A DNA stretch of 25,246 bases from a virus: positions 1 through 25,246 of IMG/VR virus record IMGVR_UViG_3300025467_000068, one strand, 5' to 3'. Every line of letters begins with the position of its first letter. Position 1 is the first letter of the stretch. Below the pieces are notes generated by a model. The model had not been told where the DNA came from and ran no database searches. It worked only from the letters and a program-made list of their open reading frames with translations. Below are positions 1 through 8,123 of the stretch, one piece after another. The translations under genes were made by a program, and so were the position numbers.

Positions 1-614
1 TTGCACCTCCAGGGTTCTTTGCACCTCCAGGGTTCTTTGCACCTCCAGGGTTCTTTGCACCTCCAGGGTTCTTTGCCCCACCAGGGTTCTTTGCACCACC
101 AGGTTTCTGTATACATGAAGACACTCTTGTTCTTACAACTACAGGATATAGAGCAGCAAAACACATATCTGTAGGAGACGTACTTCTTACCAAGGTTTTT
201 GACGGGATACTTGGAGATGTAAGTCTTAAAGAAATAGCAGCATTTAGTATAGCTGAATTAAATAATTTCAAATTTATTGAATCTGAAGTTACAGATATTA
301 CAGTTGCTACACAAAAAGAAACAATTATAATAAATGGAGATAAAGCTAAAAGATTCTCAGTATTAGAAGAAATTCTTGTATTAACAGATGGTCAATACAG
401 ATTAACTAATGCAAATCGTTTAGTTCCAGGTGATCAAATTGTTACTGTAGAAAGTGATCTTAACGATAATGAGATATACCTTCTAGATGTTAAATCAATA
501 GATGTAATTGATGAAATTACAGAGGTCTATGAGTTTAATAGAACGCCATTTGGATTAATTGTTGCAGATGGAGTAGTAGTAAACAATGGTTATCCAGATT
601 TTGATATAAATTAA
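1..614 (+). CDS. C-terminal part of a PPG-repeat protein ending in a degenerate Hint domain
   Basis: The reading frame is open from the left edge (first full codon at 3) and stops at 612-614, giving the last 203 residues of a longer protein. Residues 1-35 are hexapeptide repeats of the form APPGFF. The final F of the sixth repeat is replaced by Cys36, and from there the sequence reads as a Hint domain (intein/hedgehog fold). It begins with a block-A-like segment (CIHEDTLVLTTTG, then a VGD turn near residue 59), has a second LVPGD turn, and ends with a VVVNN block at residues 191-195 followed by an eight-residue tail. Cys1 and the terminal Asn are kept. The block-B histidine expected in a TxxH motif and the histidine of the usual HN pair appear to be replaced, so self-splicing or cleavage may be weak or lost. 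Proline-rich repeats followed by Hint domains are known from some phage structural proteins; a tail or fibre role is inferred. The N-terminus lies outside the window. Confidence 0.75.
   Translation, partial: APPGFFAPPGFFAPPGFFAPPGFFAPPGFFAPPGFCIHEDTLVLTTTGYRAAKHISVGDVLLTKVFDGILGDVSLKEIAAFSIAELNNFKFIESEVTDITVATQKETIIINGDKAKRFSVLEEILVLTDGQYRLTNANRLVPGDQIVTVESDLNDNEIYLLDVKSIDVIDEITEVYEFNRTPFGLIVADGVVVNNGYPDFDIN
3..110 (+). repeat. Six tandem 18-bp repeats encoding APPGFF
   Basis: Six in-frame 18-bp units run from 3 to 110. The first four are identical (GCACCTCCAGGGTTCTTT); units five and six differ by a few bases, and the last changes its final codon from TTT to TGT, producing the first Cys of the Hint domain. 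The array probably continues to the left of the window. Each unit contains a Pro-Pro-Gly triplet, the context hydroxylated by collagen-type prolyl hydroxylases. The repeats are coding, uninterrupted and without spacers, so this is not a CRISPR. Confidence 0.95.
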
Positions 615-702: not shown

Positions 703-1383
703 ATGAGTTATTCATCTAAAGAAATGCTTTTCCCAGGAATTTGGGTTTATAAAGATGTATTTAAAAAAGAAGTTGATTTAATAGGACGTGTAGAAAACTT
801 AATTGCAAACAATAATTCTGATTTTAAATGGTCTGGAGCCACTGTTGGCTACATGGAATCTCGCCCAGAATATAGAGATTGTGTAGATTTTAAAATTGGC
901 GAAATTAAAGATCAATCAATGCTACAAAATCCAGATTTTCAAACTTTGCAGGACATCTGGAAAGATGCGTACTTAGCACAAATTGATGCTGTTAATGATT
1001 ATTGCGCAATGTATAATTCAAAGATGGATTATTGGGAAGTAATGAATTTTGTTAAATATGGTCCTGGACAACACTTCCAAGAACACGCAGACCATGGATT
1101 TTCGTATAGCGCAACAGTTTCATTGGTTGGGTATCCAAATGATGGTTATGTTGGCGGTGGATTAAGATTCCCAAAACTTAATATTGATATTCAACCAAAA
1201 GCAGGAGATCTTTATATATTCCCATCAACATACCTATTTTCACATGTTGCCCTTCCAGTTTCTGAAGGAACAAAATACTCTATTGTTACAATGCTTGATT
1301 ATAATGATCATGCGCATAATGATGAGTTTATGCAGATGCGTGAAAAGTGGGTCGCAAGAGATGCACAAAATAAAGGCCTTTAA
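703..1383 (+). CDS. 2OG-Fe(II) oxygenase, prolyl-4-hydroxylase-like (copy 1)
   Basis: This 226-residue protein is a 2-oxoglutarate and Fe(II)-dependent dioxygenase: the family couples decarboxylation of 2-oxoglutarate to hydroxylation of a substrate. The double-stranded beta-helix core covers roughly residues 115-197. Iron ligands are His128 and Asp130 (HAD) and His181; Lys191, ten residues after the distal His, is the expected 2-oxoglutarate carboxylate binder, as in collagen prolyl 4-hydroxylase. The GYVGG-LRF and KAGDLYIFPS segments are family hallmarks. ATG 703 is preceded by TAGGG at a suitable distance. It is the first of six related but divergent oxygenase genes. The substrate is unknown; a protein prolyl residue is the leading guess, other hydroxylations are possible. 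Confidence 0.88.
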   Translation: MSYSSKEMLFPGIWVYKDVFKKEVDLIGRVENLIANNNSDFKWSGATVGYMESRPEYRDCVDFKIGEIKDQSMLQNPDFQTLQDIWKDAYLAQIDAVNDYCAMYNSKMDYWEVMNFVKYGPGQHFQEHADHGFSYSATVSLVGYPNDGYVGGGLRFPKLNIDIQPKAGDLYIFPSTYLFSHVALPVSEGTKYSIVTMLDYNDHAHNDEFMQMREKWVARDAQNKGL

Positions 1384-2053
1384 AAGAGAAGGCTATGGAA
1401 ATTTATCTCCACTATCAATAAAAAGAGAATGGATGGATAATACTTGGAATTCACACGCCTATCACTGTTTTCCAATCGGCTTAACAAATCAGTTGGGGTG
1501 GGGCATATCTTTTCCAGAAGACATATCTTTTATTTGGGATGGAATAAATGATTCTTCACCAGAGCATGTAAAAATTATGTCTGGAGAAAAATATGTTTCA
1601 ACTGGAAGAGCTAATGCCACTATTAGTTTTAATACTGGTATAAGTTTTGAAACAGAAAAAAATGTTAGTATTTTATCTATGCCCGTACCAAACTATCCAA
1701 GAGATGGTATTACTCCTTTTTCTACAATTATGTCAACTTCTTTTTTTAATGAAGATTTGCCATGTGCATGGATAATAACTAGGCCAAATGTTGAGATAAC
1801 AATAAAAGCAAATACTCCAATTATTGCAATACTACCAATTGATTTATCAGAACTTCAGGGTTCTGAAATAGATCTTTTACCAATAGATCAAAAAAAGCCT
1901 CAATCAGTAGATATGAATGAATATGGTAATACAATATATGAAATTAATAGAAATGGAAAATGGACAAATTTTTACCGTGATGGGGTTGATCATAAAGGCA
2001 AAAAGCTTGGTGAGCATCAGGTTAAAGCAATAAGGCTAAGCGTAACTAACTAG
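1361..2053 (+). CDS. DUF6065-like protein of unknown function
   Basis: This 230-residue protein starts at ATG 1361, inside the end of the preceding oxygenase gene (23-bp overlap, other frame). The frame is open further upstream, but that part encodes implausible sequence that is a shadow of the oxygenase gene. The N-terminal third has the pattern I recall for DUF6065: a KREWMD motif near residue 21, AYHCFPIGLTNQLGW at about 33-47, and a W-D-G at 59-61. The rest looks beta-rich, with an ILP/DL segment around 157-162, and it ends with a hydrophilic GxHQVKAIRL tail. No catalytic site is recognised. The family assignment is from memory of its motif pattern, not from a search. Sitting inside the array and probably sharing promoter P1, it may act with the oxygenases, for example on the same substrate. 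Confidence 0.7.
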   Translation: MHKIKAFKREGYGNLSPLSIKREWMDNTWNSHAYHCFPIGLTNQLGWGISFPEDISFIWDGINDSSPEHVKIMSGEKYVSTGRANATISFNTGISFETEKNVSILSMPVPNYPRDGITPFSTIMSTSFFNEDLPCAWIITRPNVEITIKANTPIIAILPIDLSELQGSEIDLLPIDQKKPQSVDMNEYGNTIYEINRNGKWTNFYRDGVDHKGKKLGEHQVKAIRLSVTN

Positions 2054-2059
2054 TATCTA

Positions 2060-2068
2060 TGATATAAT
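2060..2068 (+). promoter_or_regulatory. Promoter P2 (extended -10) for oxygenases 2 to 5
   Basis: TGA-TATAAT lies in the 39-bp gap between the DUF6065-like gene and the second oxygenase, 24 bp before its ATG. No clear -35 hexamer is visible, as is usual for extended -10 promoters. Confidence 0.55.
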
Positions 2069-2092
2069 TATTTTATATAGAAAGAAGAAGCA

Positions 2093-2842
2093 ATGGAATT
2101 AGCTAATAATTGGAATAAAAATGATTTGCCAAAATCAATAACCCCGTCTGGATTTTTTGGAGATTCAATTGAAAATATTGTTGAGTTACAAAATTTTATT
2201 ACGGAAAAAGAACAAGAAAGCTTGATGAGATTTGCTTTAAACAATAAAATTTGGGATAAAACAGAAACACATGTTGACCAAGATGGTTTAGTTTTATATG
2301 ATGCAACAGTTTGGGAAGACCGTGTTTGCACATATAATTCTTTAATGGCATCAGATCCATCAATATTAAATCTTATCTATTCTTTAATTGATCGTTTAAA
2401 AATTGAAGTTGACAAATTTTTTAATGTAAATGTTCAAGCCACTGGACCAGCAATTGTTAGATGGCCTGTTGGAGCACGACAAGAGCCTCACGCAGACAAA
2501 GAGTTCCATGTAGGAGAAGAACGTGGCAGACCAAATGATTTTCCCTGGTATGATATAGCTGGCCTATTTTATTTTAATGACGATTATGTGGGTGGAGAAC
2601 TTTATTTTCCCCAACATGGAATAGAGTTTAAACCAAAGCCAAGGGCGGCGTACTTCTTTCCTGGAGACAAATATTATGCCCATGGAGTAAGACCAATAAA
2701 ATCGGGTAATAGATTTACTTCTCCATTTTTTTGGACAATAATGGAGCATACAGGTGAAAAACAACCACCTGCAGGTTTTATTGGTGGATTCGATAATCCA
2801 GAATATAAAAAGCTTTTTGAAAATAAGGAGAATAATGAATAA
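2093..2842 (+). CDS. 2OG-Fe(II) oxygenase, prolyl-4-hydroxylase-like (copy 2)
   Basis: This 249-residue dioxygenase has its beta-helix core at about residues 115-215. Ligands are His133 and Asp135 (HAD) and His197, with Arg207 ten residues further on for 2-oxoglutarate. The core shows FNDDYVGGELYFP at about 161-173 and KPKPRAAYFFPGD. An AGAAGAAG purine tract precedes ATG 2093. The insert between the HAD and the ND-GGE strand is long and includes a PWYD segment, unlike copies 1 and 4. It is the first of four genes that overlap one another and probably form one transcript from P2. A prolyl or other amino-acid side chain is the likely target; the substrate cannot be read from the sequence. Confidence 0.9.
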   Translation: MELANNWNKNDLPKSITPSGFFGDSIENIVELQNFITEKEQESLMRFALNNKIWDKTETHVDQDGLVLYDATVWEDRVCTYNSLMASDPSILNLIYSLIDRLKIEVDKFFNVNVQATGPAIVRWPVGARQEPHADKEFHVGEERGRPNDFPWYDIAGLFYFNDDYVGGELYFPQHGIEFKPKPRAAYFFPGDKYYAHGVRPIKSGNRFTSPFFWTIMEHTGEKQPPAGFIGGFDNPEYKKLFENKENNE

Positions 2843-3695
2843 TATTAAGTTTACAGATGATTTTAAAGATTTAGAGTTTGAAGAAATTTATCCAAATGTA
2901 ATTGTTTATAAAAATATGCTTTCTAATCCTCAAAAAGCTTATGAAACTATGTCTAAATCAGAATCAGCTTCTGAGGGAAAATATTTTTTAAAACCTTGGA
3001 CAAAGTGGGCTCAATTTGGAACTTATACTCAAATAAAATGGGGAGAAGATTTAAATAATGTTGAACAAGGAGAAATGTTTGATGATGAAAAATCCTTACA
3101 AGACGAATTGATTGCAGCTTACGAAAAAGCAGCATCTCATTATACTAATCATACAGGTTTAAAATTTCCAGAAGACGCACATTTTAGCGGAAATTCTTAT
3201 TGTAAATATTTTGATGAAATTGATGATTTAAAAAATAATATGACAATGCAATATCATACAGATTATATCATTTCTCAAAGAGACATGCCTGGAGATAAAT
3301 TTCACACAACAATGACATTTTATATAAATGACGATTATGATGGTGGGGATTTAGAATTTTATATTGATAACAATATTATTAATCATAAACCAAAAGCTGG
3401 TGATTTAGTTGTATTTCCTTCTACAGATCCTTATTATCATGGAGTTAAAAGAATTTCTAATGGAAACAAGTACTTTGTTAGAAATTTTGTTATGACAAAT
3501 TACCCAGGATCAGAAGAATGGCTAGAAAAGCAAAGAACAATTGGTGCTTATAAATGGTCTAAGATGGAATGGGAAAGAATTGAAAAAGAAGATGATGAAA
3601 ATATGATTTATTTAAGTAACGGAACAAAAATTACTTTTGCTGAAGCACAAAAAATTAGGGCAGAAAAGTTAGGTATAACTCAGACAAATGAATAA
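2835..3695 (+). CDS. 2OG-Fe(II) oxygenase, prolyl-4-hydroxylase-like (copy 3)
   Basis: This 286-residue protein starts at ATG 2835, well placed after AAGGAG at 2825-2830, and overlaps the previous gene by 8 bp (ATGAATAA). The frame is open 81 bp further upstream, but that part lies over the preceding gene and has no comparable ribosome binding site. His141 and Asp143 (HTD), His202 and Lys212 form the predicted iron and 2-oxoglutarate site; INDDYDGGDLEF and KPKAGDLVVFPS mark the core. A C-terminal extension after about residue 220, rich in charged residues and with predicted helices, is not part of the catalytic fold and might bind the substrate or a partner. It is the longest of the six oxygenases. 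Confidence 0.9.
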   Translation: MNNIKFTDDFKDLEFEEIYPNVIVYKNMLSNPQKAYETMSKSESASEGKYFLKPWTKWAQFGTYTQIKWGEDLNNVEQGEMFDDEKSLQDELIAAYEKAASHYTNHTGLKFPEDAHFSGNSYCKYFDEIDDLKNNMTMQYHTDYIISQRDMPGDKFHTTMTFYINDDYDGGDLEFYIDNNIINHKPKAGDLVVFPSTDPYYHGVKRISNGNKYFVRNFVMTNYPGSEEWLEKQRTIGAYKWSKMEWERIEKEDDENMIYLSNGTKITFAEAQKIRAEKLGITQTNE

Positions 3696-4428
3696 AAATT
3701 TTGTTTTAGATGATTTGCTGTTGATTGAAGATTTTATAACAAAAGAAGAAGCTGAAAAAACAATTGCTCTTTTAAATAGATTAAATGAAATAAGGCCAGA
3801 TTTTTGGAAGCCAATTTCATTTTATGAATCATATTCCTCTGGTTATCCAGAAGACAATGATCCAATACTTGCTGAGTTTGGTTTGCCAAATAATTGGTTT
3901 TCTAGCTTGTATAAAAGATTTAGAGATGCGGTTGCAGAAGTAGCTAATATTCCAGAACCACAGCTTTCAAAAATAAGTTTTCATTCACAAAAATGGGAGC
4001 CAGGCGCATTTGCTCCGCTTCACTCAGATAACAGCAATAATGATGGTGTTATGGGAGCATTTACAAGAAGTCGTTATGCAGCGTTCTTATATTTAAATGA
4101 TGATTTTGAAGGAGGAGAACTATCTTTTTCTGAACATAACCTTGAGTTTTTACCAAAAACAGGCATGTTGGCAGCTTTTCATGGTGGTCATAAAAACATG
4201 CATGAGGTTAAGGTTGTTAAAAAATCAAACAGATACACTATAGGTTCTTTTTTTGATGATCGTGAGGAATCAGATTATCCTCAAGAAACTAGGGATGCGT
4301 GGGCAAAAGAGCTTGCTGAGGTAAGAGCGATGCAAGCAGATCAAGCAGTAGAATGGTCAGGAATACGTCAAGAAGGAAAAAGATTGACACCAGATGGAAA
4401 TAAAATTTCAGAGAAAGATTTGATATGA
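3688..4428 (+). CDS. 2OG-Fe(II) oxygenase, prolyl-4-hydroxylase-like (copy 4)
   Basis: This 246-residue dioxygenase overlaps the previous gene by the same 8-bp junction (ATGAATAA) seen one gene earlier. His112 and Asp114 (HSD), His172 and Arg182 complete the catalytic set, with LNDDFEGGELSF at about 136-147. The loop after HSD is short and carries NSNNDG. The usual FP of the core is replaced by FHGG around residues 164-167. After the core comes a charged C-terminal helix region (about 190-246) ending at a TGA that overlaps the next ATG. It is translated with its neighbours in a tight cluster; the substrate is unknown. Confidence 0.9.
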   Translation: MNKNFVLDDLLLIEDFITKEEAEKTIALLNRLNEIRPDFWKPISFYESYSSGYPEDNDPILAEFGLPNNWFSSLYKRFRDAVAEVANIPEPQLSKISFHSQKWEPGAFAPLHSDNSNNDGVMGAFTRSRYAAFLYLNDDFEGGELSFSEHNLEFLPKTGMLAAFHGGHKNMHEVKVVKKSNRYTIGSFFDDREESDYPQETRDAWAKELAEVRAMQADQAVEWSGIRQEGKRLTPDGNKISEKDLI

Positions 4429-5081
4429 AGCAAAAATTTTTAGGCGGTAAAGAACAATATATAATGTTTGACCTAGATGTTTTGCATCCAGACATCTGGT
4501 ATTGGGATAATGTTATTAGTTACCCTGATGAGTTAGTTCAATTTATTAATAATATAGACTCTAATCAAATGTCTCATAAAGCCATATCTCCATGGAATGT
4601 TTGGACAGCAAGTAATAATAATGATTTAATTTATGGTGCAACCAAAAACATTAATAAAGATGAGTCTAAATGGGGTTGTGGGGATGAAAAAACTGATCAA
4701 AAAATCCTATATATTTACAATAGCTTAGAAATGGCCTTTGAAATGTGTTATTCAAGATATATGGACGGTCATAAAATTAATAAAGATGAATATAGATTAG
4801 AGACAGACAATATTCCTGTTAAAAAATGGCAAGAAGGCGCAAATATGGGTCCTCATGCTGATGGTTATGATGGCAATAAAGATTTGGCATTTTCTTTGGT
4901 TTGCTACCTTAATGAAAATTATGAGGGGGGAGAAATAAGCTTTCCAGGCCACAATATAACGATTAAGCCAAAGAAAGGTAGTATGATAATGTTTCCTTCT
5001 CAAACGCCCTTTATACACGAAGTAAAGCCTATTATAAGCGGTGATAGATACATGTCTACAGTATCTGCTTGGAAAATTTAA
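4425..5081 (+). CDS. 2OG-Fe(II) oxygenase, prolyl-4-hydroxylase-like (copy 5)
   Basis: This 218-residue protein starts at an ATGA overlap with the previous gene; AGAGAAAG at 4411-4418 may serve as the ribosome binding site. A second ATG at 4464, 13 codons later, is possible and would begin nearer the conserved domain. His144 and Asp146 (HAD), His198 and Arg208 form the active site; LNENYEGGEISFP and KPKKGSMIMFPS are typical of the fold. The protein ends soon after the core without the C-terminal extension of copies 3 and 4. It is the last gene of the four-gene overlapping cluster. Confidence 0.9.
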   Translation: MKQKFLGGKEQYIMFDLDVLHPDIWYWDNVISYPDELVQFINNIDSNQMSHKAISPWNVWTASNNNDLIYGATKNINKDESKWGCGDEKTDQKILYIYNSLEMAFEMCYSRYMDGHKINKDEYRLETDNIPVKKWQEGANMGPHADGYDGNKDLAFSLVCYLNENYEGGEISFPGHNITIKPKKGSMIMFPSQTPFIHEVKPIISGDRYMSTVSAWKI

Positions 5082-5096
5082 TCTATAATAAATTTA

Positions 5097-5105
5097 TGAT
5101 ATAAT
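5097..5105 (+). promoter_or_regulatory. Promoter P3 (extended -10) for oxygenase 6
   Basis: TGA-TATAAT lies in a 45-bp gap, 21 bp before ATG 5127. A GGGGG tract at 5117-5121 supplies the ribosome binding site just downstream. No convincing -35 is visible. Confidence 0.55.
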
Positions 5106-5126
5106 TTAGTTATATCGGGGGTATGA

Positions 5127-5969
5127 ATGTTTTTTTATGATAGACCAGATTGCTTAAATCCATCTCCATACGTTGATGAATATGGAACAAAATCTGGAAT
5201 TTTTATTTTTAAAAATATAGTTCCAGAAGAATTAGTTGAAAAAATTGAAAATGGGCTAAATGCTCTGCCAAATGAAATCCCTAAGTGTGATCAGGGTTTA
5301 ATGAGCTGGTATACAGAAAAAATGGCTCCAGGAGTGCCTGGCACAATAGAGCTATGGGAATTTATGAGCGAGCTTATAGGTCCAAATTGGATTATTCATC
5401 CTCAAAACGCTTATTTAAGAGTAAGGCCTGGAGATAATGGAATGTTTATTCACTCCGATAGTCCAGGTAAAGGACAATGTCATCTTTTGTCACAAAATGA
5501 TTTATGGAGTACTTGCTGCGAATTAGATTATGGAATATGTGCTTATTTTGGTGATTATGAAGGCGGAGAAATTTTTTATCCACAAATTAATCCAGATGGA
5601 ACAATAAAAACAACTCCTGAAGATTTTAAAAAAGGATGTTTTGAGTACAAGCCACAAAAGGGAGATATAGTAATTCATAGTGCTTTTGAGCCGTACGCAC
5701 ATGGAGTGAGAGAGGTCACTTCTGGTACAAGATATGTTTTTTCTAACTTTTCTTTAAAAAAAGAAGATGCTCCAGGAACATTTAATATATATGGAACCCC
5801 AGAATATTATAAGCAGATCGGTAACAAAACTCACGAAGAGATAAGGGCTTGGATGGATCCTTTAAAAATAAATCCTCAATTTAGTAAAGAAAAGCTTAAA
5901 GTTTATCAAGAATCAGGCCTGGAAGGCACAGATTTAGCAAAAACATTCTTTAGTGATATGGTCGAGTAA
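5127..5969 (+). CDS. 2OG-Fe(II) oxygenase, prolyl-4-hydroxylase-like (copy 6)
   Basis: This 280-residue dioxygenase has His109 and Asp111 (HSD), His192 and Arg202 as the predicted iron and 2-oxoglutarate ligands. The core includes FGDYEGGEIFYP at about 141-152 and KPQKGDIVIHS at about 175-185. Compared with the other copies it has a longer loop between these strands (about 153-172, including TIKTTPEDFKKGC) and more cysteines (for example Cys118, Cys130, Cys131, Cys138 and Cys171). The C-terminal extension of about 70 residues contains a YGTPEYYKQIG segment and ends in a helix-like region. It has its own promoter and a strong G-rich ribosome binding site, so it may be expressed separately from copies 1-5. 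Confidence 0.9.
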   Translation: MFFYDRPDCLNPSPYVDEYGTKSGIFIFKNIVPEELVEKIENGLNALPNEIPKCDQGLMSWYTEKMAPGVPGTIELWEFMSELIGPNWIIHPQNAYLRVRPGDNGMFIHSDSPGKGQCHLLSQNDLWSTCCELDYGICAYFGDYEGGEIFYPQINPDGTIKTTPEDFKKGCFEYKPQKGDIVIHSAFEPYAHGVREVTSGTRYVFSNFSLKKEDAPGTFNIYGTPEYYKQIGNKTHEEIRAWMDPLKINPQFSKEKLKVYQESGLEGTDLAKTFFSDMVE

Positions 5970-6214: not shown

Positions 6215-6544
6215 ATGAAAGTAACACCTATAGACGAAGTTAATTGGGGAATATATGTCTGGCAGATGCCAGATGGCTCTATTGTTAGAGATGAAGATGA
6301 TAACACTCTAAACATTCCCGCAATTCGTGGAGATATTAGCCAGATTCAAAAACTTAAAAAAGTTGCAAAAGAGCTAGGCCTAGATGAAGGTCATCCAATG
6401 TTTTTCTCTGGTCATAGAAGAGTTACTGATGATGAACTTGAAGAACAAAAAGCACGTGCACAAATTGGACTTGTTCCAGATCCACAAGATATGCCAGCTA
6501 TGATGGAATATGTAAGAGATATGAAGGAGATGGACCTTGGCTAG
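6215..6544 (+). CDS. Hypothetical protein upstream of the portal
   Basis: This 109-residue protein is acidic and probably mixed alpha/beta, with a VW-MPDGSIVRDED segment near residues 15-28 and a PMFFSGHRRVTDDELEEQKAR stretch at about 68-88. It overlaps the portal gene by 8 bp, and the portal ribosome binding site lies inside it, so the two are translationally linked. Its position suggests a packaging or head-assembly accessory, but no terminase motifs (Walker A or B, nuclease) are present and it is far too short for a large terminase. No family recognised. Confidence 0.75.
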   Translation: MKVTPIDEVNWGIYVWQMPDGSIVRDEDDNTLNIPAIRGDISQIQKLKKVAKELGLDEGHPMFFSGHRRVTDDELEEQKARAQIGLVPDPQDMPAMMEYVRDMKEMDLG

Positions 6545-8123
6545 ATTAACCACCGCTGATGATGATGATCAGGACGGCACACAAAGAATTTATACAGGAG
6601 AAGATTTTAATCTTGTTGCAAAGTCTGAAGAAACATTTGACGACCCATTCAATGTAAGCTGGGAAGAAATTAAAAAATCAGAAGGCCTAAATGATAATTT
6701 TAGACGCAGAGCTAACAGACTTGAAAAGTCCTTTACTGGAGTAAAAGATGCAAAATCTAAAAAATTAGATCCGCTTGATTTAACAGGCTATTCATTATTT
6801 CAAATTGTTCAACCTCCATACAACGTCTTATATCTTGCACAATTATATGATGTTTCTCCATATCATCACTCTGCTGTAAATGCTAAAGCAGCAAACGTTG
6901 TAGGTTTAGGATACAAGTTTGAAGAAACTTGGGCAACAAAGGAAAAAGTTGAATCAGCAATGTCTGATCCTAAAAAGCTTGATAAGCTTCGTACAAAGCT
7001 TGAAAAATCAAAAGAAGATTTAAGAGGATATCTTGAGTCAATGAACTCAGACGATTCTTTTATTGAAAATATGAAAAAAGTATTTATTGATTTAGAATCA
7101 ACAGGAAACGGCTACCTAGAAGTTGGTAGAACCGCAACTGGAAAGATCGGATACCTAGGACACATACCTGCAACAACTATGAGAATACGTCGTCACCGTG
7201 ACGGTTTTGTTCAAGTTGTTTATAACCGATACACCTTCTTTAGAAATTTTGGAGATACTGAGACCCCAGATCAGATCGGAACTGACCCACAACCAAACGA
7301 AGTAATTCATTTCAAGGTATTCTCACCATCAAATACATACTATGGAATACCAGATATTCTTTCTGCCAAAAACGCACTTGCGGGTGACGAATTTGCACAA
7401 AGATTTAACTTAGACTATTTTGAAAATAAAGCTGTACCACGTTATATAATTACCGTAAAGGGAGCAAAACTTACTGCTGATGCAGAACGCAAATTGCTTG
7501 AGTTCTTCCAGACTGGTCTTCGTGGTCGCAATCATAGAACTTTATATATTCCTCTTCCATCAGATGGAGAAAACTCTCGTGTTGAATTCAACATGGAGCC
7601 AATTGAAGCGGGAATTCAAGATTCTTCATTCAAGAATTATGCTGTAGAAAATAGAGATCGCATTCTCCTTGCACATCGTGTTCCAGTATCTAAGCTCGGA
7701 ATGCCAGCAAACGTGTCATTGGCAAATGCTAAAGATGCAGATAAAACATTTAAAGAGCAGGTATGTCGTCCACGACAAGAAGAACTTGAGTATAAGATTA
7801 ACAAGATTATCAGTGAAATAACTGATGCTTTTGTTCTTAGATTTAATGAGCTTGCACTTACAGATGAGGAAACACAATCAAGAATTGATGATCGTTACCT
7901 TAAGGATCAAGTTATTCTTCCTAACGAAGTTCGTGCACGTAAGGGACTTCCTCCTATTGCCACAGGAGATACAGTTCTTGTGTTAAATCCAAAAGATGCT
8001 GGTGATGCAAAATCAGACGCTAGTGGAAATAAGACACGTGATCAAAATAGAACATTGAATGCGCCAGATAAAATGGGTACAGCTCGTAATGCAAAAGGCG
8101 AAGGTCCCCAAGAAGGTAACTAA
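6537..8123 (+). CDS. Phage portal protein
   Basis: The 528-residue portal forms the dodecameric ring at the capsid vertex through which DNA is packaged and ejected. Translation starts at TTG 6537, seven nt after AAGGAG at 6524-6529. The N-terminal part has a typical portal segment, PPYNVLYLAQLYDVSPYHHS at about 93-112. The central part carries SPSNTYYGIPDILSA and FNLDYFENKAVPRYI, which resemble PBSX-type portals. A helical stretch follows, then a disordered Gly/Asn/Lys-rich tail after about residue 490. Length is normal for the family. It leads the head module. Confidence 0.93.
   Translation: MARLTTADDDDQDGTQRIYTGEDFNLVAKSEETFDDPFNVSWEEIKKSEGLNDNFRRRANRLEKSFTGVKDAKSKKLDPLDLTGYSLFQIVQPPYNVLYLAQLYDVSPYHHSAVNAKAANVVGLGYKFEETWATKEKVESAMSDPKKLDKLRTKLEKSKEDLRGYLESMNSDDSFIENMKKVFIDLESTGNGYLEVGRTATGKIGYLGHIPATTMRIRRHRDGFVQVVYNRYTFFRNFGDTETPDQIGTDPQPNEVIHFKVFSPSNTYYGIPDILSAKNALAGDEFAQRFNLDYFENKAVPRYIITVKGAKLTADAERKLLEFFQTGLRGRNHRTLYIPLPSDGENSRVEFNMEPIEAGIQDSSFKNYAVENRDRILLAHRVPVSKLGMPANVSLANAKDADKTFKEQVCRPRQEELEYKINKIISEITDAFVLRFNELALTDEETQSRIDDRYLKDQVILPNEVRARKGLPPIATGDTVLVLNPKDAGDAKSDASGNKTRDQNRTLNAPDKMGTARNAKGEGPQEGN

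Follow-up and report, generated by a model that had tools for sequence, protein, structure and literature searches.

The six prolyl-4-hydroxylase (P4H)-like oxygenase genes at positions 703–5969 of the window, that is, the complete linear virus record of 25,246 bases analysed here, are part of an ordered gene set that lies next to a gene for an Fn3-(FFxPPx)n repeat protein. We propose, with a probability of roughly 0.64, that this array supplies the P4H-like enzymes of a virion-maturation module, the other half being the neighbouring repeat-containing fibre, which they would hydroxylate. Such a decoration of the fibre is probable because dozens of other uncultured phages have the same ordered set beside a repeat of this kind. 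The original prediction, which described the six oxygenases, omitted both this likely substrate and a further partner gene, encoding a DUF6065 protein.

The presence of portal, capsid and tape-measure genes identifies the window as a phage. The portal protein (6537–8123, forward strand), which ends the cassette and was used as the anchor for the comparison of relatives, has its closest annotated relatives in Streptomyces phages at ca 55% identity, and an actinobacterial host is guessed on this basis. A freshwater habitat of these phages is in part inferred, as the collections give metagenome accession numbers and not habitats.

All six oxygenase genes are on the forward strand and have intact reading frames. 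They carry the HxD...H ligands and the downstream 2OG-binding Lys or Arg, namely H128, D130, H181 and K191 in O1 (703–1383, subfamily F1); H133, D135, H197 and R207 in O2 (2093–2842, F2); H141, D143, H202 and K212 in O3 (2835–3695, F3), which overlaps both O2 and O4; H112, D114, H172 and R182 in O4 (3688–4428, F4); H144, D146, H198 and R208 in O5 (4425–5081, F5); and H109, D111, H192 and R202 in the divergent O6 (5127–5969), which is found only in the close kin of the window. These 24 residues agree exactly with those listed originally, and the Lys or Arg follows the distal His by ten residues in all six proteins. In collagen P4H the His-to-Lys spacing is likewise ten residues. The Pfam profile 2OG-FeII_Oxy_3 matches all six, with O1, O3, O4 and O5 exceeding its curated cut-off of 27 bits, O2 just missing it at 25.3 bits and O6 weak at 18.8 bits, and all six match phrog_61 (‘2OG-Fe(II) oxygenase’). 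The copies are indeed strongly diverged, the pairwise BLASTP identities being ca 22–43% over the core. Across the relatives, the metal ligands are invariant in F1–F4 and nearly so in F5, and the subfamilies have specific conserved residues of their own. With dN/dS values of 0.04–0.18, all six genes are under purifying selection, which rules out decayed copies. Since every gene is under such selection and many other phages have the array too, a chance array can be ruled out as well.

A structure prediction had been proposed as a check of the beta-helix site. For O1, the one oxygenase that was folded, the predicted structure (pLDDT 90.9) shows the double-stranded beta-helix P4H fold, and its best solved matches are the viral collagen P4H of PBCV-1, bacterial, human and algal P4Hs, and PHD2. 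P4H activity, that is, C4 hydroxylation of peptidyl proline, would be the reaction expected of the array enzymes.

It should be pointed out that the copies, which had been described as lying side by side, are clustered but not strictly contiguous. The gene for the DUF6065 protein (1361–2053, forward strand; 230 aa, with the start placed by alignment) splits O1 and O2. This protein matches PF19541 with 98.6 bits (cut-off 26.6) and is a constant partner of the array. In a search for cultured relatives, a comparison with 50,697 phage records gave no match for it, and no DNA match was obtained for the oxygenase region. The intergenic gaps of the array also contain three TATGnTATAAT motifs, all on the forward strand: the extended −10-like TATGTTATAATCA (667–679) ahead of O1, TATGATATAATTA (2058–2070) ahead of O2 and TATGATATAATTT (5095–5107, one mismatch) ahead of O6. 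There are 5 matches to this motif in the window, compared to 1.8 expected. An inverted repeat with 19-nt arms and a 1-nt gap (627–665), located between the repeat gene and O1, is a candidate terminator or operator.

We now turn to the proposed substrate. The window begins with the 3′ end of the repeat-protein gene (3–614, forward strand), the start of which is off the contig, and its first bases (1–108, forward strand) are a tandem 18-bp repeat of six copies with 95% matches, encoding APPGFF units. In the near-identical contigs L008, L087 and L089, the whole protein has 673 aa and combines Fn3 domains and FFAPPG repeats with a Hint-like domain at its C terminus, for which the window gives weak Hint/intein matches below the cut-off. 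By inspection, the block-B His of this domain is kept in L052 and replaced by Glu in the window. Over 1269 units, the repeat has a period of six, FF-[A/S]-PP-x, with the consensus FF-[A/S]-PP-[G/S/L/A] and ca 3–35 copies per protein. Pro-Pro-Gly occurs in it, but there is no collagen-like Gly-X-Y triplet repeat. The X-Pro-Gly sequence used by collagen P4Hs is contained in APPG. Some phages encode a further FFxPPx protein (cluster 15), which is longer (ca 800 aa) and lies 5′ of the fibre genes, as at L111:7942–10620 and L141:1039–3666. A bacterial source of the repeat was considered and rejected: one genome scan of bacteria and archaea yielded five matches, all of them lacking a nearby oxygenase and most resembling out-of-frame coincidences.

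The search for the same array in related contigs, also suggested originally, shows that the cluster is conserved, with 20 complete non-redundant cassettes containing 4–7 oxygenases each (median 6). Their order is fibres – Fn3-(FFxPPx)n – F1(–F1) – DUF6065(–DUF6065-like) – F2 – F3/F4 – F5 – LamG protein – small gene – portal, the fibre-like genes being 5′ of the repeat protein; in the window, the repeat protein is followed by the oxygenases, small genes and the portal. The phylogeny gives five orthologous subfamilies in conserved order, plus O6. F2 is a single clade in 20/20 cassettes (SH-aLRT 100) and F1, F3 and F4 are well supported, while F5 is less clean and the deep joins, with their long branches, are unsure. 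Since orthologous subfamilies recur in conserved order, the copies are neither random single captures nor recent local duplicates, the exceptions to the latter being additional copies of F1 and, in L010, one of F5. Together with the predicted fold of O1, the conserved cluster means that neither of the refuting outcomes named originally was seen. In a separate lineage, the FFxPPx protein is a different, short one and F2 is on the other strand, with F1, F2 and usually DUF6065 kept.

A number of other genes are found in or near the cassettes. A sulfotransferase (PF03567) and an Asp/Asn beta-hydroxylase (PF05118) lie between the repeat protein and the array in 14 loci each (examples are L125:4353–5072 and L144:2086–2691, both on the reverse strand). 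The same slot is occupied in 7–8 loci by a GNAT-like gene together with an unassigned one (L149:4515–5060, L099:5054–5650); the first gene of the pair has no Pfam match. In close kin of the window, a luciferase-like monooxygenase (weak PF00296) follows O6 (L012:8626–9435, L010:8637–9437); the window is without it. At L183:874–3613, one strand carries nine short pieces of oxygenase genes, which look like the result of frameshift errors or decay.

The association between repeat and array was quantified by scanning IMG/VR for DNA encoding (FFxPPx)3, which yielded at least 115 loci at which the repeat is in frame. Among the matches listed, oxygenases are present in 97 of 115 loci (3.39 per 10 kb), and 390 of the 407 oxygenase reading frames are 3′ of the repeat gene on the same strand. 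Most of the oxygenase-negative loci stop just after the repeat. Where 1.5 kb or more of downstream sequence is present, the count is 84/88, and after dereplication 70/72 at 95% and 36/37 at 80% identity, again among the matches listed. Control loci picked in the same way gave, among the matches listed, oxygenases in 5/120 cases for a GxQ repeat (0.11 per 10 kb) and in 10/120 for a Pro-Thr repeat (0.10 per 10 kb). The former rules out that any repetitive fibre attracts oxygenases, and the latter that any proline-rich repeat does so.

We have also considered a portal-anchored set, selected independently of the repeat and consisting of portal relatives that have 6 kb or more of upstream sequence. 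Here, oxygenases are present in all nine relatives with a proline repeat and in 3 of the 24 without (Fisher p = 5.7e-6, kinship ignored). The nine include repeat types other than FFxPPx, namely FAPVFS, TTNPGV and FxPFxF, seen together with oxygenases at L052:1506–2852, L017:5222–6049 and L018:1–540. In the three relatives with oxygenases and no visible proline repeat, the chunks end near the oxygenases. As these phages share ancestry, the co-occurrence counts are not independent and the p-values overstate independence.

On the basis of these results, the following scenario can be suggested. Late in infection, the phage would make its tail-region fibre proteins, one of them with FFxPPx repeats and often with a C-terminal Hint domain that may be self-processing. 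The co-inherited set of Fe(II)/2OG P4H-like enzymes, that is, five old non-redundant subfamilies and in this case O6, would then hydroxylate the repeat, most likely at its invariant Pro-Pro, with each enzyme possibly taking its own position, neighbour context or residue. The modification could stiffen the chain, make it more hydrophilic or ready it for further decoration. The sulfotransferase and the Asp/Asn hydroxylase (14 loci) and the GNAT-like gene (8) in the slot before the array fit a decorated fibre. The original suggestion of a multi-step or multi-site pathway instead of one auxiliary gene stands as far as a pathway-like set of conserved orthologous subfamilies is concerned, while multi-step or multi-site chemistry would be a further supposition. 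The activity of the enzymes, the role of the repeat as their substrate, the presence of the repeat protein in the virion, the number of steps and the benefit are all inferred. A more elaborate version, in which five P4H subfamilies and DUF6065, sometimes with the sulfotransferase or Asp/Asn hydroxylase, modify Fn3-(FFxPPx)n into a hydroxyproline-rich fibre that the Hint domain then cleaves or attaches, in widespread uncultured freshwater phages, is tentative.

Another option is that the oxygenases act on host proteins, such as EF-Tu or other translation or surface factors, and that the fibre-side position is a conserved late-region cargo site. A host target is possible because the folds nearest to O1 include the P4Hs of P. 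putida and B. anthracis, described as EF-Tu-acting, and the PDB titles of 4iw3 and 5v7y speak of bacterial P4Hs hydroxylating or binding EF-Tu. In addition, other phages have 2OG oxygenases at a distance from the fibres, for instance beside recombinase and helicase genes in S-H38. However, most relatives that have another fibre repeat at this site are without the array, the rearranged lineage keeps F1, F2 and usually DUF6065 together with its different FFxPPx protein, and one host target needs fewer than five orthologous subfamilies in fixed order. We consider this option to be unlikely, although it deserves to be kept in mind.

The enzymes might instead modify other tail-fibre proteins of the operon, with FFxPPx being a merely correlated part of the fibre type. 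Fibre genes do flank the cassette in most loci, and in cyanophage S-MbCM7 two 2OG oxygenases are encoded amid tail-fibre and tail genes, with no repeats of this type there. Yet the repeat predicts the array better than the fibre type does, and non-proline collagen-like fibres at this place usually lack the array, which makes this scenario quite improbable. Less probable still is a hypermodification of DNA or nucleotides, with the oxygenases oxidising bases and DUF6065 handling the nucleotide. The best fold matches of the predicted DUF6065 structure (pLDDT 93.2) are dUTPase and dCTP deaminase, but the likeness is weak and at the fold level only (TM normalised by query ca 0.4, ca 10% identity), and an assignment as dUTPase was rejected since the Asp-containing catalytic motif is, by inspection, missing from the conserved columns. 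Moreover, O1 matches protein P4Hs and not base oxygenases, and the array genes are placed between the fibre and portal genes. Finally, the enzymes might use up or modulate 2-oxoglutarate and thereby change the nitrogen or energy metabolism of the host, as has been put forward for the 2OG oxygenases of cyanophages (PMC3037559) and again for a lake phage (PMC10611076). This leaves the five orthologous subfamilies, their specific residues and the link to one repeat type unexplained, and is very improbable.

Hydroxylation of the repeat protein would give one large group of oxygenases a specific and testable substrate next door. Few unexplained genes of aquatic phages are as common as those for 2OG-Fe(II) oxygenases, which have mostly been classed under auxiliary metabolism or DNA repair (PMC3037559, PMC12774648); phage members have been explained by 2OG/nitrogen metabolism and DNA repair (PMC3037559, PMC10611076), and a structure survey, which names no substrate, found prolyl-hydroxylase-like folds to be widespread in marine phages (PMC12774648). 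Searches of the openly licensed literature turned up no earlier description of an FFxPPx–oxygenase module. If correct, our proposal would provide the first concrete substrate for this gene class, and the module points to phage fibres that are built post-translationally.

It is instructive to compare the module with known systems. The 2OG-Fe(II) oxygenases of cyanophages (P-SSM3, S-MbCM7 and others) match the same phrog_61 profile and some adjoin tail-fibre genes, but neither a proline-aromatic repeat nor a DUF6065 relative was found in annotated phages. At the cyanophage loci examined, no proline repeat was found on a nearby coding gene, the one instance being in an antisense frame. Fibre hydroxylation is therefore not the general role of the family, and the module is a specialised case. 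The top structural match of O1, PBCV-1 vCPH (PDB 5c5t, E = 8e-10), is also a virus-encoded P4H fold, but it comes from a eukaryotic algal virus and has 15% identity to O1, whereas the tailed phage here has five or six subfamilies arrayed beside a repeat protein. The P4Hs of Bacillus anthracis (5hv0) and Pseudomonas putida (4iw3) share the fold and the HxD...H ligands, but are described as interacting with EF-Tu and have no tie to a phage repeat protein. The lysyl hydroxylase of Mimivirus (6ax7) is a viral 2OG hydroxylase with a fold similar to O1, but it is from a giant virus and has a lysyl target, whereas the phage repeat is without the Gly-X-Y pattern. As in Hedgehog/intein (Hint) domains, the C-terminal domain of the phage protein begins with Cys, directly after the repeats, although its matches are below the Pfam cut-offs and the block-B His is changed in the window. 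The building of a hydroxyproline-rich phage fibre, if such a fibre is indeed made, which we suggest only tentatively, would correspond in phages to the maturation of collagen or plant extensin.
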